Origin: Geobacter sp. FeAm09 | GTDB taxonomy: Bacteria > Desulfobacterota > Desulfuromonadia > Geobacterales > Pseudopelobacteraceae | Reading direction: 5' to 3' | NCBI RefSeq assembly: GCF_008330225.1 | Contig: NZ_CP042466.1 | Location: forward strand, 2,350,001 to 2,414,000 | DNA: 64,000 bases | Part shown: piece by piece, positions 31,069 to 45,066 of the stretch | Numbering within the stretch: the first letter of the stretch is position 1 | Layout: each line of letters opens with the position of its first letter | Made by a program: the position numbers and the translations under genes | The notes under the pieces: model-generated | The model's database searches: none | Told to the model about the DNA's origin: nothing | Seen by the model: the letters and a program-made list of their open reading frames with translations, nothing else

Positions 31069-31764
31069 TTATGCCGATTTGCCCATCCGGCGCTTGCCGT
31101 AAACCACCAGGCAGAGTATGCCGGCACCGAAAAGAGCCATCGTGCCCGGTTCGGGAACGGGAACTTCCTGGTAAATGACGTCGTTGCCGCAGGTCACTTC
31201 GTAACCGATGATGTAGTTGGAGGTCAGCAGCAACAGGTCGGACAGGCTACTGAAATCAAACGAGATTGCCGTCGTACCCGCCGAATAGGTGACATAGCCC
31301 AGCAGCGAAGCCAGACTCGGCGTGGTCGCCAGCCCCACCGGAACGCCGGCGCGGTAGTAAGTGGCAGGCAAGCCGCCATCGGATGACATGGTATAGGCGG
31401 TCGTATCGTGCAGGGCGACGTTGATCGCATAAAGCCCAAGGGAGTAAGTGCCGTTCAAACTTGTGCCCAGCGCCCTGACGACGTAGTCCCAGGTTCCGTC
31501 GGCGCCGGCATCGATGAAGAGGTCGCCGGAAGCAATGTTGAAGTTGTAGCTGTTCAAATTGAAGGTAATGTTCAACAGCTTGCTGGTATCCATGGTCACG
31601 GTGGTGGACGCGATATCCGGGCTGCCATACGGATCCGCGCTATTATTGGAAGTTGCGGTCCACGTATCCCAGTTCAAACTTGTGTCGGTATATGTTGCTG
31701 CATGTGCGGCCTGGCCAATAGCCAACGATGCGATAAGAGCTAGAACGAGGGCGATCCGTTTCAT
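31069..31764 (-). CDS. PEP-CTERM sorting-domain protein
   Basis: 231 residues from the ATG at 31764, which has AAGGAG 7 nt upstream. The signal peptide MKRIALVLALIASLAIGQAA is followed by a Ser/Thr/Asn-rich beta-strand-rich exported domain with no known catalytic motif. The C-terminus is a textbook PEP-CTERM signal: VPEPGTMALFGAGI, a hydrophobic helix, then KRRMGK. It should be cleaved or anchored by the exosortase encoded at 33585 and sent to the outer surface. It is the only PEP-CTERM protein in the window and probably a main substrate. Confidence 0.9.
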   Translation of the reverse strand: MKRIALVLALIASLAIGQAAHAATYTDTSLNWDTWTATSNNSADPYGSPDIASTTVTMDTSKLLNITFNLNSYNFNIASGDLFIDAGADGTWDYVVRALGTSLNGTYSLGLYAINVALHDTTAYTMSSDGGLPATYYRAGVPVGLATTPSLASLLGYVTYSAGTTAISFDFSSLSDLLLLTSNYIIGYEVTCGNDVIYQEVPVPEPGTMALFGAGILCLVVYGKRRMGKSA

Positions 31765-31830
31765 GTCTGTTCTCCTTTTTATGAAGATGTCACTCTTAAT
31801 ATCTGCCTGAATTTTCAAATTGCTGAAGAA

Positions 31831-31849
31831 AATACAGATTTCATGCCAA
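31831..31849 (-). promoter_or_regulatory. Sigma-54 (-24/-12) promoter of the PEP-CTERM gene
   Basis: On the minus strand the sequence reads TTGGCATGAAATCTGTATT. The GG and GT doublets are spaced as in TGGCACG-N4-TTGC, with CTGT in place of TTGC. It lies about 70 bp upstream of the ATG. PrsR, a sigma-54 activator, is encoded 3 kb away, which makes this a likely target. Confidence 0.65.
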
Positions 31850-32260
31850 CACAACAAAATGCTGTTTTTACTACATTATATTTTTCGAACATCTATCGAA
31901 ACAGGCGTTTGTAAAGAAGATCGACAGAAAGGGAGAAGTGCACATTCCCTCGGGGGGAAATCATGGCTCCATGGTGTGATTGCCGGAAAGGTCTCTGTGG
32001 CGAGGCGCCGTTGCAAGGCGGGGGAATGGCACGGGGACAGGTGCCGGTGAAACGATTGGCGGTGCGGATGACGCCCCCGTGGGGGTATTCATCGTAGTCG
32101 GGGGGATTGGTGACCTTGGATGATTATGGAGCCCACGGCGGATTTCCGGTTCTCAGCCACCGCGCAGACCGGCCGACATTGACAGCCGTCACCACGGCAC
32201 AATCGTGAGGTGCGGCTGATCCCCGGAGAGCGGGAGGCCACCAGGGCCTCCCCAACGCTC
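31850..32260. other. Intergenic region, no gene recognised
   Basis: About 410 bp between the sigma-54 promoter and the UDP-sugar dehydrogenase stop. The part near 31860-31910 is AT-rich and may hold activator sites. From 31930 to 32230 it is GC-rich with short open frames that lack any family feature. At the dehydrogenase end there is a hairpin at 32232-32252. Confidence 0.5.
32232..32252 (-). terminator. Hairpin after the UDP-sugar dehydrogenase
   Basis: GGGAGGCC (32232-32239) pairs with GGCCTCCC (32245-32252) with a 5-nt loop, 9 bp past the dehydrogenase stop. No T-run follows, so termination is possible but not certain. Confidence 0.45.
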
Positions 32261-33584: not shown

Positions 33585-35114
33585 TTACCGGGGAAGAAAC
33601 TCCTGGATCGTCGGTCCAATGTCGCGCACAAACTGTTCCCCGCGGGAAATCGCCGCTGCCTCATCATTTTCGAACGGCACGGAGACCCGGATGAACGAGG
33701 TGTCACGGCGCCGGTACAGCAATGAACCGGCCATTTCAGCCAGCTTGAGGGAAAATTCGTCATTCATCGAATGGCCCCGGGCCTGGAACCAATAGAGAAA
33801 CAGTTCCTTGTTTTCGCCTTTCTGGTAGATGCTCCGCACCAGCTTGATGCTCCCTCCGGCAGGAATATCCAGGGTGCCGCGCTTTGTGGATACTTCATAC
33901 CAGCCGCTTCCCGGCAGGCAATTCCGGGGAGAGTGTATCCCCCCGCTCTCCTTGCCGCCGCCATGAAAGCCGATGTAAAGCCCCACGACCCTGCCGTCGG
34001 CATCCGCGTACTGGCGGTAGGTATAATCCGTCGGCTTAAGCACGCTGAGAACGTCGGCGCTGAACTCGGCCTGCCCCGCCATCCGCCAGGCCTTCACCTG
34101 CGTCGGAAACTCGCTCAAGGGGCGGATTGGGGGCACCGAGACATCGCTATGAACGTTTATATAAAGCGCCACGCCCACCAGCAGGAGGAACACGGCATAA
34201 TAGCTTCGAAGACGAGGAGCGGGCGCCGGTTCGGCGACGGCGGCCGGGCCGGGCGGCCGACCGGCCGGTCCCTCGCCATTTTCCGGCCGCCCCTTTACCA
34301 GAGCCCCCACCGCCACCAGGAGCACAATCGCCAGCAGGAAGACCACCATTCCGGCGAATTCGTGGAAAAAACCTTCCGCCGCCTTTGCCCCCCACCATTG
34401 GGCCAGAATACCGGTAACGATGACCCGCAGAGCGTTTGTGGCAATGGCGACCGGCACCGCTGCGACGATGATGATCCACCGCCGGACATTCGACGTCTGC
34501 ACGAAAAAGGCGTAGGCGACCGCCAGCGCGAGCAGGGACATGAGCGAACGGATCCCGCTGCACGCGTCGGCCACCTCGAGGGTTGTGGTCGGAAACATGA
34601 TGATGTTCCCTTCCCGCAATACGGTGACGCCGACAAGGCGCAGGAATTCGACCGAAACCTTCGTGACGAAAAGCTTCAGCGGGAACGCCAGCATATCGTA
34701 GATAATGTAGGGGATCGGCACCATGAAGATCAGGTACCCCAGAGGCAAAGCCAGCCATTTCAGGATGTCCCGGCCAAACCAGAAAAGCACGAGCCCCGCC
34801 ACGATGATTATCAGGGAGGAGCGCATGGTAAAGTATTCCGTCGCCAGCCAGGCCACCAGCAGTTGCGCCCCCCCCAGGGCGAGCACCCCCAAGCCCCAGA
34901 CATTCGGGCTGACGTGCCGATCTTTGAAGCCGGGCCACCGTTGCCAGAGAAAATATCCGGCGATGAACGGGACGAGGAACCCGTGGGAATAGTTGTCGTC
35001 CCTGGCCCAGTCCCTGACCATGTCGGGCACGACCGAGTAATAGAGCCCCACAAGCAAAGGGAGGACGATCAGGAAATGCACCTTGTACTGTTTGCACGCT
35101 TCGGTAAATGTCAT
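33585..35114 (-). CDS. xrtA: Exosortase with fused EpsI domain (XrtA type)
   Basis: 509 residues. The N-terminal half has about eight membrane helices with the exosortase catalytic set: Cys in LEVADACSGIRSLM, Arg in IATNALRVIVTG and His in FFHEFAGMVVF. A Pro/Ala-rich linker (near residue 280) joins a C-terminal EpsI-like domain with GIHSPRNCLPGSGW. The fused form is that of the XrtA/EpsH group, which works with PEP-CTERM proteins and an exopolysaccharide operon. It recognises PEP-CTERM tails at the inner membrane and cleaves or transfers them. Its neighbours, from PrsK/PrsR to the EPS cluster, agree. The start lies 59 bp after the endonuclease-fold gene. Confidence 0.93.
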   Translation of the reverse strand: MTFTEACKQYKVHFLIVLPLLVGLYYSVVPDMVRDWARDDNYSHGFLVPFIAGYFLWQRWPGFKDRHVSPNVWGLGVLALGGAQLLVAWLATEYFTMRSSLIIIVAGLVLFWFGRDILKWLALPLGYLIFMVPIPYIIYDMLAFPLKLFVTKVSVEFLRLVGVTVLREGNIIMFPTTTLEVADACSGIRSLMSLLALAVAYAFFVQTSNVRRWIIIVAAVPVAIATNALRVIVTGILAQWWGAKAAEGFFHEFAGMVVFLLAIVLLVAVGALVKGRPENGEGPAGRPPGPAAVAEPAPAPRLRSYYAVFLLLVGVALYINVHSDVSVPPIRPLSEFPTQVKAWRMAGQAEFSADVLSVLKPTDYTYRQYADADGRVVGLYIGFHGGGKESGGIHSPRNCLPGSGWYEVSTKRGTLDIPAGGSIKLVRSIYQKGENKELFLYWFQARGHSMNDEFSLKLAEMAGSLLYRRRDTSFIRVSVPFENDEAAAISRGEQFVRDIGPTIQEFLPR

Positions 35115-36196: not shown

Positions 36197-36536
36197 GAAA
36201 GGCTGACGGGTATTGATTTTCCGTTTACCGGCCCCATTTATCCTCGCCCAGACGGTTGCACATTAAAATCGCAATTTTTCTGTATAATACAGAAGTCTTA
36301 GATTATTACAACAGATAGGATTCACGGAACAGTTGCCAAACGATGGAAAAATGATATTATTAGAGCGTCGTATTTTAGATTAGCTTAATTAAGTAGTAAA
36401 TGCATTTGCACATTTCCTCCCCCTTCCGGGGAGGAGAAGAACGTGCAAAAGCACGCGCCGACGAGAACGGCAAAAGCCCAAGGCCCCCGACATGCAAGCG
36501 AATGGTGATCCCCGAGACCATAGGCGAGGTTCCCAA
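36197..36536. other. Divergent regulatory region of the exosortase operon and crp-like gene
   Basis: This 340-bp gap holds the palindromic promoter at 36278-36294, a long AT-rich stretch (36295-36410) and a CTCC/GGAG hairpin (36415-36434). The leader before the crp-like gene is GC-rich. No gene is seen in it. Confidence 0.6.
36278..36311. promoter_or_regulatory. Palindromic divergent promoter/operator
   Basis: TTCTGTAT-A-ATACAGAA (36278-36294) is a perfect 8-1-8 palindrome. It contains an extended -10 for the plus strand (TGTATAAT, 36281-36288). It also contains a -10 for the minus strand (TATTAT, 36284-36289), with TTGTAA (36306-36311) at a 16-bp spacing. A protein bound to the palindrome would control both the Crp-like gene and the exosortase operon. 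Confidence 0.6.
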
Positions 36537-37247
36537 ATGATCTGGAAAACAAACCAACGGCAGAAGCCTGACGGCAACATAATCAAGAACATACCTTTTT
36601 TCTCGGGCCTTTCCCCGGAAGAGATAAACCTGATCGAAAGTCTTATCGTCAAAAAGCACTATGCAAAAAACCAGATCGTGCTTTTCGAAGAAGACACCGC
36701 CAAGTACATGTATATCGTCTACTCCGGCAAGGTGCGGGTCGTCAAGATCAATGAAGAAGGCAAGGAACAGATCATCAGCATCCACAAGAAGAACGACTTC
36801 TTCGGCGAGATGGCCCTGCTCGACGGCAAGACATCTCCGGCCACCGTCATTGCCTACGAGGATGCCATCATCGGGCTCCTGTCCAAGGAGGATTTCGAAC
36901 GCTTCGTCCTCAATAACGACGCCACCCGCCACAAGATAATCGGCCTATTGTGCGACCGGCTCCGCGATTCCTGGGCAATGATCAAGATATTGAGCTTCGA
37001 CAATGCCGAACACCGAGTGCTGGCGGTACTTGACAGGTTGCAGGACTTGTATGGGGTTATGGACGACCGGGGCACCATCATCAATGCGAAACTGACGCAC
37101 CAGCAGATCGCCAGCTATGCGTCAGTCGCACGGGAAACGGTAACGAGGATTTTGAACAAGCTGGAAAGGGATGCCATGATTCAGGCCCTGGACAACAAGT
37201 CGATTCTGTTGACCAAGGCATTCTATTTGCGGCCCAGAAGCGCCTGA
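36537..37247 (+). CDS. Crp/Fnr-family transcriptional regulator
   Basis: 236 residues from the ATG at 36537 (MIWKTNQRQKPDGNIIKNIP), with GAGG 8 nt upstream; an ATG at 36492 is possible but lacks a ribosome binding site. The cyclic-nucleotide-binding domain (residues 20-140) has FGEMALLDGKTSPATV. The C-terminal winged helix has THQQIASYASVARETVTRIL. The RETVxR pattern equals the Crp recognition helix that reads TGTGA half sites. No Fnr-type cysteine cluster is present, so a nucleotide ligand is likelier than Fe-S. A perfect TGTGA-N6-TCACA site lies 4.3 kb away upstream of the riboswitch-controlled gene. Confidence 0.92.
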   Translation: MIWKTNQRQKPDGNIIKNIPFFSGLSPEEINLIESLIVKKHYAKNQIVLFEEDTAKYMYIVYSGKVRVVKINEEGKEQIISIHKKNDFFGEMALLDGKTSPATVIAYEDAIIGLLSKEDFERFVLNNDATRHKIIGLLCDRLRDSWAMIKILSFDNAEHRVLAVLDRLQDLYGVMDDRGTIINAKLTHQQIASYASVARETVTRILNKLERDAMIQALDNKSILLTKAFYLRPRSA

Positions 37248-37758
37248 ACGGCAAGCGGCTACCTGAACGTTGCCCTTGCATACACACCATCCAGCCCCCC
37301 CCGCGGGCGGAAAAGAAATGTGCGCTGTAGTTGACGAAGCTGCTATTGGGCACATACCCCACCGGTACATCGCACTTGATCGTCAGGAACTCCCCCAACC
37401 CGTAACTGGATATGCTCGGATAACTGATGGTCAGTTTATGGGATGCGCTTGAGTACCTGACGCCGTTTTCATAATCCAGCGTCGAACCGGAAAATTGGCC
37501 GGACAGGTAGACAGCCGTGGAAAGCGGCACTTCCGGGTCACTGGCCGTTGTCTTGATGCTCGCCTCCTGCGGCAGGTATACCGTCAGATCAAAACCGGCA
37601 ATCTGGGCATTGGCGCTATAGGATGAGAAAACAAGCGTCGCTGTTTTCGTCGTGCTCCCGCCATCGCCGCTTCCCCCACTCCCGCCGCCACCACAGCCCG
37701 CCAGAAACATCATCTGAATACCGATCACGATGGAAGATATTATGTTGAGCGATTTCAC
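37081..37758 (-). pseudogene. Cohesin-like lipoprotein, frameshifted at a C8 tract
   Basis: Starts best at the GTG at 37758, with GGGAGG 5 nt upstream (an ATG at 37779 has none). The signal peptide ends in IQMMFLAGCGGGGSGG, a lipobox. Next is one cohesin-like beta-sandwich: AQIAGFDLTVYLPQEASI, SGQFSGSTLDYENG, SSYGLGEFLTIKCDVPVGY and FVNYSAHFFSARGGG. The frame then crosses a run of eight C (37295-37302, G on the coding strand) and continues 167 bp into the antisense of the Crp-family gene. One more G would give LDGVYARATFR and a stop at 37259-37261, just short of the crp stop. That is the expected end of a cohesin fold, so the present frame is broken or phase-switched. It lies downstream of a dockerin-like protein gene. 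Confidence 0.75.
37295..37302 (-). repeat. Homopolymer C8 (slippage site)
   Basis: Eight consecutive C on the plus strand inside the cohesin-like lipoprotein gene, at the exact point where the family-like sequence leaves frame. Confidence 0.8.
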
Positions 37759-37782
37759 GGTCCCTCCCGTAAAGTCCATAGA

Positions 37783-37815
37783 GAAGAGGGCGACTTTTGC
37801 AAAGCCGCCCTCTTC
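37783..37815 (-). terminator. Hairpin between the beta-helix gene and the lipoprotein gene
   Basis: GAAGAGGGCG (37783-37792) pairs with 37806-37815 around a 13-nt loop, 35 bp past the stop of the 1126-residue protein. There is no strong T-run, so it may be a leaky terminator or an RNA-stability stem that sets the ratio of the two products. Confidence 0.5.
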
Positions 37816-37850
37816 ATAACATCTGCCAATCTATTACATGCGTGTCTGAT

Positions 37851-40800
37851 TTACAAGATCGTCTTTCCAACTATCTTCGACATGATCACGATAACGTCTC
37901 CCGTGTTGATCGTACCATCCGGAACCGACTGGCCGTTGACCACGGGGGCGACATCCAGACTCGACAGTTGGGCTGACGTCGGGGTGACCTTGCCGCTGGC
38001 AATCCGCAGCGCCAGCAAGGCATCGCTGACCGTGTAGCTGGTGGTGGTCGTCGTCGCCAGGGTGATGGTTACGCTGCCGCTCCTGGCGGCCGAGACGTTG
38101 CCCGCGGCATCCTTGGCCCAGGCGTAGGCGGTCTTGCTGCCGGCGGCCGAGAAGGTGAACGAGGTCGGAACCGTGCTGCTCCACCCGGTGGCACTGGCCG
38201 ACGGGGCGGTGGCGCTCTCGGTTACCAGGTAGCCGGTCACGGCCACGTTATCGGTGGCGGCGAAGGAAGAGACGGCGACCGTCAGCGAGGTGGCAGTCGC
38301 CGGGATGCTGAAGGCCGAAACCGTCGGGGCGGTCGTATCCGCCAGGGTGATGGTTACGCTGCCGCTCTTGGCGGCCGAGACGTTGCCCGCGGCGTCCTTG
38401 GCCCAGGCGTAGGCGGTCTTGCTGCCGGCGGCCGAGAAGGTGAACGAGGCAGGGGCCTTGCTGCTCCACCCGGTGGCGCTGGCCGACGGGGCGGTGGCGC
38501 TCTCGGTCACCAGGTAGCCGGTCACGGCCACGTTGTCGGTGGCGGTGAAGGAAGAGACGGCGACCGTCAGCGAGGTGGCCGTCGCCGGGATACTGAAGGC
38601 CGAAACCGTCGGGGCGGTCGTGTCGGCCACGACGTTGTTCACTGTTACGGTTATGGTCGATGTGGCGGCGCTGTTGCCGGCGGCATCGTAGGCTTTTGCA
38701 TACAGGGAGTACGAGCCGTTCGCGTCTGCCGTCGTGTTCCAGCTGAAGCTGTAGGGCGAGCTGTTCACCGAAGCGCGCAAGGTACCGTTGACGTAGAAAT
38801 CGACTCTGCTGACGCCGACATTGTCGGAAGCAGTGGCGGTCACGGTGACGGTGCCACTGACCGTAGCATTGCTGGTGGGTGCCGTTAAAGCGGCAGTGGG
38901 AACGGTGGTGTCGGCGACCGCGTTGCTCACCGTTACGGCAACGCTTGTGGAGGTTCCCACATTGCCGGCCGCGTCATAGGCCTTGGCGGACAGCGTAGAG
39001 GAGCCGTTGCTTACGGAGGCGGTATTCCAGGTATAGCTGTAAGGTGAACTGGTCGTTGTCGTCAGGAGGGTGCCGTTTACATAGTATTCGACTTTGGCTA
39101 CGCCGACATTGTCGGACGTGTTTACCGTCACCGAGACATTACCGCTGACGGTGGCGCCGGCGGCAGGCGCCGTTATGGCAATCGCCGGAGCAGTCGTATC
39201 CGTTGTAGTGGTTCCCGTCCCCGATGCGGCCGAAATCGTAATCGACCCGCCGGTTCCCACAAGAGTATAGGTTCCGCTGCTGGTCACGGCATCCCACGAG
39301 CTTGCTGAGGTGTCAGGCGTTGTCGTGAACATATCCTGGCTCGTCGCCAGATTGTAAAGATCGTTGGTATGGGGCCGGTAGGTCACGGTTGTCGGCGTCG
39401 CCTTTCCCGTGGTGCCGCCGGCATTGTTCAATTCATAGTCATAAACATAGAGCGGAGCGGCGCCGGTGGCATCGGTGACCGTGGCGAGTTGCACGCCGAA
39501 ACTGGAAGTTGTGCCGGTATAAACGGTGGTGCGGATGTTGGGCAGCAGGTTGCTTCCGGTATCCTTGACCGTGCCAGACATCAGGCGGCCGAAGATGACG
39601 GCTTTGCCCCGGTATGCATTGCCGTTCGACAGGCTGTCGAAATTGAAGCCCAGATCGCTTTCCGCTGCGCCGTTCTGGTAGACGTTGGACAGGAGGAGGC
39701 CGGTGCTGATTTCGTAGTAGGTCCCATATCCGACGCCTATGGTGTGGTAGCGGCTGTAGCTGCCGGACTTGATGAACGTATTCCGGTACACCAGGGGGAA
39801 ACCGTCGGACGGGCCATAATCATCACCCAGCGCGAGGTTCAAAATGTTGCTTGTCACCGTGTTGCCATAAACGGCCAGGTTGGGATGAAAATCCGACCTG
39901 CGGGGTTGGCTGGGATCGGTGTAAAAATATCTGTTGTCGATGTTGGCGCAGATGGAGATGCCGATGGCCGAACCGGTTCCGTCGTTGTCCAAAGCGGTGA
40001 CCGTATTGTTGTAAATGCTGGCGCTATGCCCGCTCCACCTGAGCCCGAGCATTATCCCCTTGGCCATGGACCCCATGGTGACCGCCTGGCCGGTAGGCGA
40101 CCACGTGCCCTGAAAGTTGTAATTGCCGGTAGCGGTAATGGTATTGTCATGCACGGACAGATTGACAATGCCGGTGGTGCTGCGAATACCAACCGCCCAT
40201 ACGCCTGAATCCGACCACGTTGAAGCGCCCGGGTAAACGCCGCCGCTATATTCCACGCCGAGCCTTGTCACCTGGACATCGATAGTGTTGCCGTACACCT
40301 CGATATCGTGGTTGTAGCCATTGGGGTTGTTCACATCCTGGGGGACGTATGTTGCGTCAATCTCCGCGGGGTCGGTCACAAACCCTTTTGGCGTGGAGCT
40401 GCCGAGGGCGATCCCGACGGGCATCTCGCCTCTGCCGACGATAGTGTTATTGTAAATCTTGGAATTGGAGCTGATGCCGATGCCGACCGAATTGGTGCAT
40501 ATGCTGAGGATACTGATAGTGTTGCCGTAGACATTGCTCGTGTAACCGGCTTCGACACCCTTGTCACGCGTATTGATGATGGTGTTGTTTCTCACGGTCC
40601 CATACCATCCCCACAAATGGATGGCCGAGATGCCGGAATGACGGTCCGTCACCGTACCATAATTGTAGACATCCTCAACGGTGGAGTTTTCAACCGTCAC
40701 GTAATCGCCGCCCAGTTGGAAGCCCCCCACGTCCTGGCCGCCGTATTTTGCGTAAATGCCTGCTATTTGTGTTCTGTCAGCGCCTTTGTACTTGGTCGAT

Positions 40801-41231
40801 ATGGGGTTGTTGCCGAGCCCGTAGCTTCCCCCTGCCGACAGTGCCGTGCCCTGGATGATCTGGCCGTACGTGACGGCGATGTCATGGAGGTTGTACGCCG
40901 TCGTCTCGATGCCGTTGCCGGTGGACACCTGGTTGTAGGTGATCGTATGGCCATTCAGATTGATGACCACGTAGGGGGCCGTAATCTGGATTGCGGCACT
41001 GTCCGCGCTGATATCGCTGTCCAGGATGTATTCGGTATTGGCGGTGCCGGCGATATAGGGGGTGGTGAAATGCCCGCCGGTGATATGCACGGTATTGGTC
41101 ACGTACTGGCGGGCAGTTATGGTGGCGGTGTTGTTGCCGGTAGCGGCGAAGGATACGGAAACCAGCGAGAAGGCCAGAACAAGTGCCGGGAATAAAGAGT
41201 TGCGTACTTTCGAAACCAGTGTGTTGCTCAT
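37851..41231 (-). CDS. Secreted beta-helix / Ig-like / dockerin-like surface protein
   Basis: 1126 residues. A signal peptide (cut near SVSFAA, residue 29-30) leads to a right-handed parallel beta-helix at about 35-600, rich in N-N-T-I turn motifs (YGNTIDVQV, VRNNTIINT, IYNNTVTAL). Two Ig-like domains follow (650-845; each with DNVGVxxVxxYVNGTL). Two near-identical 95-residue repeats occupy 868-1058 (TDNVAVTGYLVTESATAPSA). The C-terminus (1064-1126) is dockerin-like: DALLALRIASGKVTP, then DGTINTGDVIVIMSKIVG. It should be exported and displayed, with adhesion or polysaccharide binding as the likely role; no catalytic residues were identified. Expression is controlled by a Crp site and two GEMM riboswitches. 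The first 600 residues are paralogous to the lipoprotein at 42997. Confidence 0.88.
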   Translation of the reverse strand: MSNTLVSKVRNSLFPALVLAFSLVSVSFAATGNNTATITARQYVTNTVHITGGHFTTPYIAGTANTEYILDSDISADSAAIQITAPYVVINLNGHTITYNQVSTGNGIETTAYNLHDIAVTYGQIIQGTALSAGGSYGLGNNPISTKYKGADRTQIAGIYAKYGGQDVGGFQLGGDYVTVENSTVEDVYNYGTVTDRHSGISAIHLWGWYGTVRNNTIINTRDKGVEAGYTSNVYGNTISILSICTNSVGIGISSNSKIYNNTIVGRGEMPVGIALGSSTPKGFVTDPAEIDATYVPQDVNNPNGYNHDIEVYGNTIDVQVTRLGVEYSGGVYPGASTWSDSGVWAVGIRSTTGIVNLSVHDNTITATGNYNFQGTWSPTGQAVTMGSMAKGIMLGLRWSGHSASIYNNTVTALDNDGTGSAIGISICANIDNRYFYTDPSQPRRSDFHPNLAVYGNTVTSNILNLALGDDYGPSDGFPLVYRNTFIKSGSYSRYHTIGVGYGTYYEISTGLLLSNVYQNGAAESDLGFNFDSLSNGNAYRGKAVIFGRLMSGTVKDTGSNLLPNIRTTVYTGTTSSFGVQLATVTDATGAAPLYVYDYELNNAGGTTGKATPTTVTYRPHTNDLYNLATSQDMFTTTPDTSASSWDAVTSSGTYTLVGTGGSITISAASGTGTTTTDTTAPAIAITAPAAGATVSGNVSVTVNTSDNVGVAKVEYYVNGTLLTTTTSSPYSYTWNTASVSNGSSTLSAKAYDAAGNVGTSTSVAVTVSNAVADTTVPTAALTAPTSNATVSGTVTVTATASDNVGVSRVDFYVNGTLRASVNSSPYSFSWNTTADANGSYSLYAKAYDAAGNSAATSTITVTVNNVVADTTAPTVSAFSIPATATSLTVAVSSFTATDNVAVTGYLVTESATAPSASATGWSSKAPASFTFSAAGSKTAYAWAKDAAGNVSAAKSGSVTITLADTTAPTVSAFSIPATATSLTVAVSSFAATDNVAVTGYLVTESATAPSASATGWSSTVPTSFTFSAAGSKTAYAWAKDAAGNVSAARSGSVTITLATTTTTSYTVSDALLALRIASGKVTPTSAQLSSLDVAPVVNGQSVPDGTINTGDVIVIMSKIVGKTIL
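38056..38625 (-). repeat. Two tandem 285-bp coding repeats
   Basis: Units 38056-38340 and 38341-38625 are nearly identical over 285 bp and encode two 95-residue domains of the beta-helix surface protein. The high DNA identity points to recent duplication or gene conversion. Confidence 0.85.
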
Positions 41232-42996: not shown

Positions 42997-45024
42997 CTAG
43001 TTCGCTATCGTCACCGATCCGCCCGCACCAGTCAAAACGAATGTCCCGCTGCTACTTACATGATCCCACGCGGCAGGCGAAGGATCAGCATTGGTCGTAA
43101 ACATGCTCCGCTTTGCCGCCGCATCGTAAAGGCTGACGGTATGGGGCCGGTATACCACTTTTACCGGCGCTGCCTTGCCACTGGTACCACCGGCATTATT
43201 CAGTTCATAGTCATACACGTAAAGGGGAGCGGCACCGGCAGAATCGCTGACCGATGTAAGCTGGACGCCAAAACTCGAAACAGCACCGGGATATACGGTT
43301 GTGCGGATATTGGGCAGCGGCCTGTTCCCGGCATCCTTAACCGTGCCTGCCATCAGGCGGCCGAAGATGATGGCCCTGCCCCTATAGGAGTTGCGGTCGG
43401 ACAGGGCATCGAAATTGAAGTTGAAATTGTTCTCCGCGGAGCCGTTCCGATAGCTGTTCGAAAGAAGAATCCCCGTGGCGTGATCGTAGCAGCCGTAGCC
43501 GGTACCGGATGTGACGTATGAGGCGAATTCGCCTGATTTGATGAAGGTATTCCGGTAAATCAGCGGAAAACCGTCGGCGGGGCCATACTCGTCGCACAGG
43601 GAAAGATTCATGCCGTTACTGGTGACCGTATTGCCATAGATTCTCAGGTCAGGGTGAAAATCGGGGCGCCGGGCAGCGCTGCGATCCGCATACCAGTACC
43701 GGTTGTCTATGTTGGCATCGACGGCTATTCCCACGGCATACCCCGTGCCGTCTTTATCGTTTGCCACAATCGTGTTGTTGCTGAAGGTGGCGCTGTGGTC
43801 ATTCCACCGAAGCCCCAGCATGAGGCCCCTGGCGCCGGCGCCCATTGTCACCGGCTCTCCGGTAGGCGACCATGTGCCGATAAAGTTCGCGTCACTATGA
43901 ACCGTAATGGTGTTGTCATGGGCGTTGAGATTGACTATGCCCGTCGTACTCCTTATGCCGACGGCATTGTCGCCCCGCACCCAGGTTGCCGGGCCAGGAT
44001 ATGCTCCGCCGGCATATTCGGTGCCCAGCCCCGTGACCCTGACATCGATGGTGTTGCCGTATATTTCCACATCGTGGACATAGCCATCCAGGTGCGCGGC
44101 ATCCATCGGCACATAGGTTGGATCGACCTCGGCAGGATCATTCGAGAAGCCCTTGGGCGTTGAGCTGCCGACTTCGATGCCTATCGGATGCTCGCCAACG
44201 CCTGTTATGGCGTTGTTTCTAATTGTGGAATTCGCTCCCACGCTTATACCGATGGAATTGGTACATATGCTCCTGATGCCAATAACATTGCCTTCAGCCA
44301 ACGTGCTGTAGTTCGAGGCTATGCCTTGTTGGCGTGTCGTGATGATGGTATTGTTTCTGATTGTGCTGAAACTTCCCCAGCATTTTATTGCGGCATTTCC
44401 CACATGGCGATCAATAACGGTCCCATAGCGGTACGTATCTTCGACGGTGCATTTTTCCACCGTCACATAGTCACCGCCCAAATGGAAACCGGCAACGTCT
44501 TTGCCGCCGTACTGCGCAGAGATGTCGGCGACCTGCAGCCTGGTCACGCCGCAGTACTTTGTCTGAATGGGGTTGTTGCCCAGTCCGTAGGCCGCACCGG
44601 AGGACTGTGCCCTCCCCTGAATTATCCGGCCATTGATTATCCCAACGTCGTGAAAATTATAATTGACGGTGCGTATGCCATCGCCCGGGGACACTTGGTT
44701 GTACCTGATGGTGTGCCCGTTCAGGTTGATGATGACATAGGAAGCGCCGATTACGATCGCGGTGCTGTCGGCGCTTATGTCAGCGTCCAGGATGTATTCG
44801 CAGTTTGGGGTGTTGGCAACATAGGGAGCGGTGAGGTGCCCGCCGGCAATATGCACCGTTCTGGTTACATATTGGCGGGCGGCAATCGTGGCTGCGTTGC
44901 TGCCGTAGGGGCTTGCACCGGCTCCGCCGTATCCCCCGCCACTGGCAAGTACCCCCTGCGAGGCCCTTCCGCCCGCGCACCCGCACATGCCTGCAAGCAG
45001 TGCCACAAGAATTATTTGCTTCAT
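42997..45024 (-). CDS. Beta-helix lipoprotein, paralogue of the riboswitch-controlled protein
   Basis: 675 residues from the ATG at 45024 (MKQIILVALLAGMCGCAGG), a lipoprotein signal with the acylated Cys near residue 16. The body is a right-handed beta-helix sharing long segments with the 1126-residue protein: SISADSTAIVI-like strands, INLNGHTIRYNQVSPGDGI, YGLGNNPIQTKY, VGIRSTTGIVNL, FIGTWSPTGEPVTMG, YVYDYELNNAGGT. It ends after the helix, without Ig, repeat or dockerin domains, so it is the membrane-anchored short form. It has no riboswitch and follows the flippase by 42 bp. A polysaccharide-binding or lyase/epimerase-like role is possible; no catalytic residues could be assigned. Confidence 0.87.
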   Translation of the reverse strand: MKQIILVALLAGMCGCAGGRASQGVLASGGGYGGAGASPYGSNAATIAARQYVTRTVHIAGGHLTAPYVANTPNCEYILDADISADSTAIVIGASYVIINLNGHTIRYNQVSPGDGIRTVNYNFHDVGIINGRIIQGRAQSSGAAYGLGNNPIQTKYCGVTRLQVADISAQYGGKDVAGFHLGGDYVTVEKCTVEDTYRYGTVIDRHVGNAAIKCWGSFSTIRNNTIITTRQQGIASNYSTLAEGNVIGIRSICTNSIGISVGANSTIRNNAITGVGEHPIGIEVGSSTPKGFSNDPAEVDPTYVPMDAAHLDGYVHDVEIYGNTIDVRVTGLGTEYAGGAYPGPATWVRGDNAVGIRSTTGIVNLNAHDNTITVHSDANFIGTWSPTGEPVTMGAGARGLMLGLRWNDHSATFSNNTIVANDKDGTGYAVGIAVDANIDNRYWYADRSAARRPDFHPDLRIYGNTVTSNGMNLSLCDEYGPADGFPLIYRNTFIKSGEFASYVTSGTGYGCYDHATGILLSNSYRNGSAENNFNFNFDALSDRNSYRGRAIIFGRLMAGTVKDAGNRPLPNIRTTVYPGAVSSFGVQLTSVSDSAGAAPLYVYDYELNNAGGTSGKAAPVKVVYRPHTVSLYDAAAKRSMFTTNADPSPAAWDHVSSSGTFVLTGAGGSVTIAN

Positions 45025-45066
45025 ACGGCCCCTTTCCCCGATGGCTATCGACCGCGTCACCTGCGG

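Follow-up and report, generated by a model that had tools for sequence, protein, structure and literature searches.

Dockerin-tailed proteins paired with single-cohesin lipoproteins: a candidate two-part surface anchor in Geobacter-like bacteria

How a large exported protein is held on the cell that secretes it is the question raised by a locus of Geobacter sp. FeAm09, from whose genome (4.10 Mb, one contig) we analysed a stretch of 64,000 nucleotides (positions 2350001-2414000, hereafter ‘the window’). Known solutions include PEP-CTERM/exosortase sorting, in which an enzyme-processed C-terminal signal fixes exoproteins at the surface, and the cohesin-dockerin anchoring of cellulosomes in Clostridium and Ruminococcus. 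A preliminary description of the window had proposed that a 1126-residue protein with a dockerin-like C-terminus is anchored by the product of the next gene, a lipoprotein with a single cohesin-like domain, in a locus that also harbors PEP-CTERM sorting. The analysis presented here leads us to regard the pair as probably a two-part, non-covalent surface anchor consisting of a dockerin protein and a cohesin lipoprotein. The features concerned are the following (window coordinates).

31069-31857, minus strand: PEP-CTERM protein (Pfam PEP-CTERM, E 2.3e-6, above the cut-off)
33585-35114, minus strand: exosortase with an EpsI-like C-terminal domain (NCBIfam 8TM_EpsH, E 1.2e-67, and EpsI_fam, E 1.4e-38, both above their cut-offs)
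36492-37247, plus strand: convergent Crp-family regulator (cNMP_binding, E 2.7e-25)
37259-37758, minus strand: cohesin-like lipoprotein gene, GTG start, frame broken in a G run
37295-37302, minus strand: run of eight G that shifts the lipoprotein frame (comparison with L056)
37300-37653, minus strand: predicted cohesin domain up to the frame break, 118 aa (AlphaFold and VIA-align)
37780-37850, minus strand: inter-gene stretch with a strong hairpin (fold z -3.2 here, -5.2 in the related locus L079)
37851-41231, minus strand: 1126-aa dockerin protein (open reading frame list; Pfam Big_7, E 4.2e-40)
37854-38039, minus strand: predicted dockerin domain, the last 62 aa of that protein (profile, AlphaFold and structure alignment)
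42997-45060, minus strand: 687-aa protein (head match to the 1126-aa protein; N-terminus by eye)

The peptides quoted in the preliminary description are present in the 1126-aa and lipoprotein reading frames, and its mention of PEP-CTERM sorting in the same locus agrees with the PEP-CTERM protein and exosortase found in the window.

The 1126-aa protein comprises a signal-peptide-like start, a head (residues ~32-667), an Ig-like stalk (~678-1058) and the C-terminal dockerin. Searches of Pfam, NCBIfam and the PDB with single sequences returned nothing convincing for either the dockerin or the cohesin-like domain, so that the identification rests on alignments and structure. An AlphaFold model of the C-terminal domain (pLDDT 87.8, alignment of 24 sequences) has the compact type I dockerin fold of two antiparallel loop-helix repeats, and upon VIA realignment to 89 candidate chains all 21 entries with Z ≥2 were dockerins or cohesin-dockerin complexes, the best being 2ccl_B (Z 7.2, 54 residues). 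The two 12-residue calcium loops typical of type I dockerins are absent from the window domain, in which the first EF-hand loop is lost and the second is lengthened to 20 residues; as modelled, the domain is a dockerin fold with variant loops. Pfam PF00404 (Dockerin_1) does not match the window member and gives weak matches in three of 11 family members (best E 4.2e-4, one of the three below the cut-off), while the dockerin profile is weakly linked by sequence to cellulosomal dockerins (2y3n_B, E 0.013; 5m2o_B, E 0.026). Foldseek alone, queried with the dockerin model, produced no match at E ≤0.001 (best E 0.14).

The lipoprotein domain was modelled as an all-beta structure lacking its last strand, with moderate confidence (pLDDT 72.8, pTM 0.68, 14 sequences), and the model displays the jelly-roll beta sandwich characteristic of cohesins. 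After VIA realignment, ranks 1-28 were all cohesins, led by 2xdh, a non-cellulosomal Archaeoglobus fulgidus cohesin (Z 8.4, 2.4 Å, 95 residues), and cohesins occupied 44 of the 50 rows shown, counting 3kcp_A and 4fl4_I, whose titles are silent and which we take to be cohesins. This realignment reorders Foldseek's own hits and is not an independent search; in Foldseek's ranking the first cohesin stood at rank 12 (E 0.066), after domains of pilins, adhesins and clathrin adaptors, and no match reached E ≤0.001. Z values for both domains are modest, a Z near 8 being the level that the alignment tool calls common, and it is the consistency of the aligned rows, rather than the Z values, that carries both predicted fold assignments. 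At the sequence level, Pfam Cohesin (PF00963) matched none of the eight lipoprotein domains scanned. The lipoprotein profile matched a profile of five Pfam-cohesin domains, which we selected from non-secretin proteins, with 65% probability over 101 columns; a broader selection of 26 Pfam cohesins, most of secretin-length origin (30 rows minus L143, L149, L156 and L157), gave no match (2.9%). Structure prediction had been named beforehand as the test on which the proposal could fail, and the dockerin-like C-terminus and the single cohesin-like domain claimed for the two neighbors were both borne out by it.

The lipoprotein reading frame is open from an ATG at 37779, and the GTG at 37758, which lies behind a Shine-Dalgarno-like GGGAGG (by eye), is the likelier start; the gap from the dockerin gene is then ~90 bases (70 if the ATG is used). 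The window protein has the signal peptide with lipobox cysteine expected of a bacterial lipoprotein (LAG-C, by eye; Cys codon 37693-37695). The end point of 37259 given in the preliminary description needs correction, as it is the stop of another frame, the frame shifting at 37295-37302; the frame as assembled enters the convergent crp-like gene and ends at 37081. In an intact lipoprotein from a same-genus relative (60% identical), the final residues resemble the window's other frame. The shift at the eight-G run thus leaves the assembled window lipoprotein without the proper end of its cohesin domain, and this copy may be non-functional; from the two sequences compared, the shift may reflect a mutation, slippage (phase variation) or a sequencing error. 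The inter-gene hairpin recurs in the related locus L079 with a changed stem; it was considered as a terminator and rejected, a terminator scan having found none.

What the two domains might do is indicated by the way in which they are combined with other parts. The same-genus relative L079, which also has a Crp-like gene at the matching place and an intact lipoprotein 60% identical to that of the window, shares the stalk and dockerin of the 1126-aa protein (57 of 62 dockerin residues identical), whereas its N-terminal part differs: the head has been exchanged, and stalk, dockerin and lipoprotein have been retained. Conversely, the 687-aa neighbor in the window has the same head as the 1126-aa protein (65% identity over 636 aa) with neither stalk nor dockerin, and possesses its own lipobox-like start (by eye). 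An exchanged head on a constant anchor, together with one head on two kinds of anchor, favors anchoring as the function of the dockerin-lipoprotein module.

The arrangement is not confined to this locus. The window dockerin stretch, used as a lone query, matched 12 other places in the genome (11 of them at E ≤1.2e-5, one at 0.028). The window lipoprotein, in a search blind to gene order, found three relatives (E ≤4.4e-4), each adjoining one of these dockerins; two more matches (E 0.3 and 0.7) were no better than chance. These two lone-sequence searches constitute the independent evidence in this genome: the profiles used subsequently were built from the same loci, several of them chosen by adjacency, so that neither profile E-values nor this genome's count can serve as such. 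The profiles recovered 12 strong dockerins, one weaker (E 1.2e-8, in a 221-aa protein, behind a cohesin-like domain) and one at chance level, as well as nine cohesin-like domains; a tenth lipoprotein, at 2.838 Mb, was identified by the lone-sequence match only (E 4.4e-4). For nine of the 12 strong dockerin genes, the next gene lies on the same strand and encodes a cohesin-like lipoprotein, the exceptions being those at 856k, 859k and 3030k, and among the 10 lipoproteins only that at 2560k has no preceding dockerin. In G000, pairs at 862-863 kb and 1673 kb have identical dockerins, near-identical lipoproteins and dockerin proteins of differing length, which suggests a recent duplication.

Across 58 genomes of the order, profile searches (E ≤0.001) detected the dockerin in 43 and the cohesin-like domain in 38. 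At least 73 of the 122 cohesin-like matches (28 genomes) follow a listed dockerin on its strand at a distance of 0-1.7 kb, a lower bound given that 150 of 213 dockerin matches were listed; among these listed dockerins, neither the reverse gene order nor an opposite-strand arrangement occurred. With the window's genome, the source of the profiles, set aside, at least 65 pairs remain, against 0.14 expected by chance. The pairing is not universal, as a listed dockerin is missing upstream of 49 of the 122 cohesin-like matches, and 77 of the 150 listed dockerins (of 213) lack such a lipoprotein. A scan of named genomes gave 24 loci, of which 14 carry the names Geobacter, Geomonas, Citrifermentans, Geomesophilobacter or Geobacteraceae; the lipoprotein lies within 0.9 kb downstream in 11 of the 24 and elsewhere in the locus in two more. 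In Halioglobus and Desulfobacterales loci the dockerin was matched by profile and no such lipoprotein was found within the extracted flanks. Pfam cohesins, many in proteins of about secretin length, are present in 50 of the 58 genomes.

To describe the module, 85 pairs were extracted by adjacency from 65 regions as well as from this genome and from the named loci. In all 85, the dockerin ends within five residues of the stop codon and is followed by one such cohesin domain per locus; 80 of the partners have a lipobox by rule, and the other five a Gly-Cys motif by eye. Most lipoproteins are either short, with the cohesin ~120-490 bases past the dockerin, or long, with an extra N-terminal domain (by eye) and the cohesin ~780-990 bases past it; in one further pair the distance is ~1300 bases. 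After removal of the doubtful L036 and three duplicates, pattern counts in the remaining 81 pairs showed the second dockerin loop to be lengthened in 79 (69 of them with 20 residues) and a canonical first loop in 39. Cohesin similarity follows dockerin similarity in these 81 pairs (Mantel r 0.53), more closely than when partners are shuffled within genomes (mean r 0.22; none of 5000 shuffles reached 0.53). When the upstream cargo is taken into account (73 of the 81 pairs, eight being dropped for short upstream sequence), the partial correlation with the cohesin is 0.47 for the dockerin given the cargo and 0.30 for the cargo given the dockerin, and among comparisons with unrelated upstream cargo the cohesin-dockerin correlation drops to 0.35.

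Linked inheritance contributes to this co-variation and is not fully removable from it. Indeed, a surface protein and a lipoprotein linked by descent, their domains never in contact, would by themselves yield both pairing and correlated similarity, and the cargo beside the dockerin shows a correlation with the cohesin as well (r 0.47). Nevertheless, we give co-inheritance as the whole explanation very little credence: dockerin and lipoprotein stay together in L079 while the head is exchanged, and two separate structure predictions arrive at the complementary partners of a binding pair that is already known. An export role fares only slightly better. The lipoprotein might meet the dockerin in the periplasm and pass the protein to a type II secretion system with a cohesin-ended secretin; this genome's secretin does end in a Pfam Cohesin domain (E 1.4e-12), and the breadth of Pfam cohesins in the order, many at about secretin length, would fit. 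Several genomes (e.g. G015, G035, G045 and G049), however, have a Pfam cohesin without this kind of dockerin, so that the domain must serve another role at least there, and one lipoprotein per cargo exceeds the need of a general helper, making this explanation quite improbable.

Dockerins and cohesin lipoproteins might alternatively be interchangeable within one cell, giving rise to a network of mixed composition at the surface or in the matrix, or to cell-cell links, rather than to private anchors. Three of the 12 dockerin genes, two of which adjoin a third that has a lipoprotein, lack one of their own, the genome encodes further cohesins and a cohesin-dockerin fusion, and cohesins and dockerins of methane-oxidising consortia are read as adhesion proteins in the available text of PMC10553843 and PMC9012536. 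We nonetheless consider such a network unlikely, since partner similarity within genomes follows adjacency, and the 85 extracted pairs have one such cohesin domain per locus, with which these lipoproteins alone could not cross-link.

The reading that we prefer remains that of a dedicated anchor, and the anchoring idea of the preliminary description thus gains support, at the level of sequence comparison, from gene pairing, partner co-variation, head exchange and the one ectodomain with two anchors. The 1126-aa protein, with its head, Ig-like stalk and C-terminal dockerin, would be exported through its signal peptide; the neighboring gene would supply a small lipoprotein in which a glycine-rich tether joins a lipidated cysteine to one cohesin domain. 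The dockerin is expected to bind the cohesin of its own neighbor gene, holding the secreted protein on a membrane, most likely at the outer face of the outer membrane, and the arrangement is repeated in the genome for other cargo (multicopper oxidases, Ig-type proteins). We infer this binding, its one-to-one specificity and the outer-surface location. In an elaboration to which we attach a low probability, these pairs would be split lipoproteins with private non-covalent lipid anchors, and the cohesin of the type II secretin would read the same dockerin tag during export and hand the cargo over; if so, it would explain how soluble outer-surface redox enzymes, e.g. dockerin-tailed multicopper oxidases, are retained on the cell.

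A Pfam scan of 19 dockerin-tailed proteins (the one at 863k being left out) revealed a varied cargo, including a subtilase, which sits in a cluster with one lipoprotein, proteins with fn3 and Ig domains, multicopper oxidases, NHL and RCC1 propellers and di-haem peroxidases. No catalytic glycoside hydrolase was found in these 19 proteins, the only related domains being accessory ones that take their names from such enzymes, Glucodextran_B and CHB_HEX_C_1. At least 11 open frames among the matches listed have both a Cu-oxidase_2 match and a dockerin, some of the oxidase matches being weak. OmpB of G. sulfurreducens is described in the available portion of PMC5566968 as a multicopper oxidase associated with the outer membrane. 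Were the proposed anchor real, the surface retention of OmpB-type multicopper proteins in Geobacter would become directly testable, many genomes of an order that contains metal-reducing bacteria would possess a modular surface anchoring for extracellular enzymes, and the many natural pairs, whose specificity may differ, would be useful in protein engineering.

The closest known systems are those based on cohesin and dockerin, here with one-cohesin lipoprotein anchors. As in cellulosomes, the predicted folds are cohesin and dockerin, the dockerin is C-terminal on secreted modular proteins, and the cohesin is part of a cell-bound protein. In contrast to cellulosomes, the anchor proteins of the extracted pairs have one cohesin rather than an array and are held by a lipid rather than by an SLH domain or sortase; most paired cargo has its own adjacent anchor gene and is redox, protease or adhesin-like; and the second dockerin loop mostly has 20 residues instead of 12, the first being non-canonical in about half. 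The multi-cohesin scaffoldin with cellulolytic enzymes that defines a cellulosome is not found here, the window lipoprotein having one cohesin. Cohesins and dockerins also occur in other organisms that do not degrade cellulose (A. fulgidus, ANME archaea and their sulfate-reducing partners). For the ANME archaea and partners, the available text of PMC10553843 and PMC9012536 mentions adjacent cohesin and dockerin domains and describes no recurrent pair of dockerin-protein and lipoprotein genes. Nor did the open-licence literature, including the accessible portions of PMC10553843, PMC9012536, PMC5566968 and PMC3495685, yield an account of such a pair from Geobacter-like bacteria. While cohesins and dockerins are thus already known, outside cellulosomes too, the recurrent pair with a one-cohesin lipoprotein and a stretched second loop looks like a new version of them. 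NCBIfam NF041540 (GC-type dockerin domain-anchored protein) is likewise named as a dockerin-anchored family, yet only one of 11 members matches it (E 0.032). PEP-CTERM sorting, in the same window, also relies on a C-terminal surface-fixing signal, but an enzyme-processed one, as opposed to a folded domain with a protein partner.

Other loci display further combinations of these domains. In L058 and L059, relatives of the window lipoprotein, stalk-type Ig-like repeats lie between lipobox and cohesin (by eye). L026 (177-6051; ~115.2-121.1 kb of this genome) has three consecutive genes that together look like a small scaffold chain: the first product (823 aa) ends in a dockerin-like sequence (by eye, no Pfam match), the second (723 aa) combines a Pfam Cohesin match (E 5.6e-13) with the variant dockerin, and the third is a cohesin-like lipoprotein. 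A 221-aa protein in L029 (4849-5511, minus strand) has a cohesin-like domain (by eye) with a canonical dockerin behind it (Dockerin_1, E 5.8e-7), and a 427-aa protein in L025 (7372-8655), with a Pfam Cohesin match (E 2.5e-5) and one dockerin-like loop near its end (by eye), adjoins a dockerin/lipoprotein pair. The type II/III secretin of L158 (7273-9861; ~1.4533-1.4559 Mb of this genome) is 862 aa long, begins with a lipobox-like sequence and ends in the Pfam Cohesin domain noted above (E 1.4e-12). Finally, L159 (1685-3031, minus strand) has two adjacent short lipoprotein-like reading frames with cohesin-like sequence, the second of which matches Pfam Cohesin.
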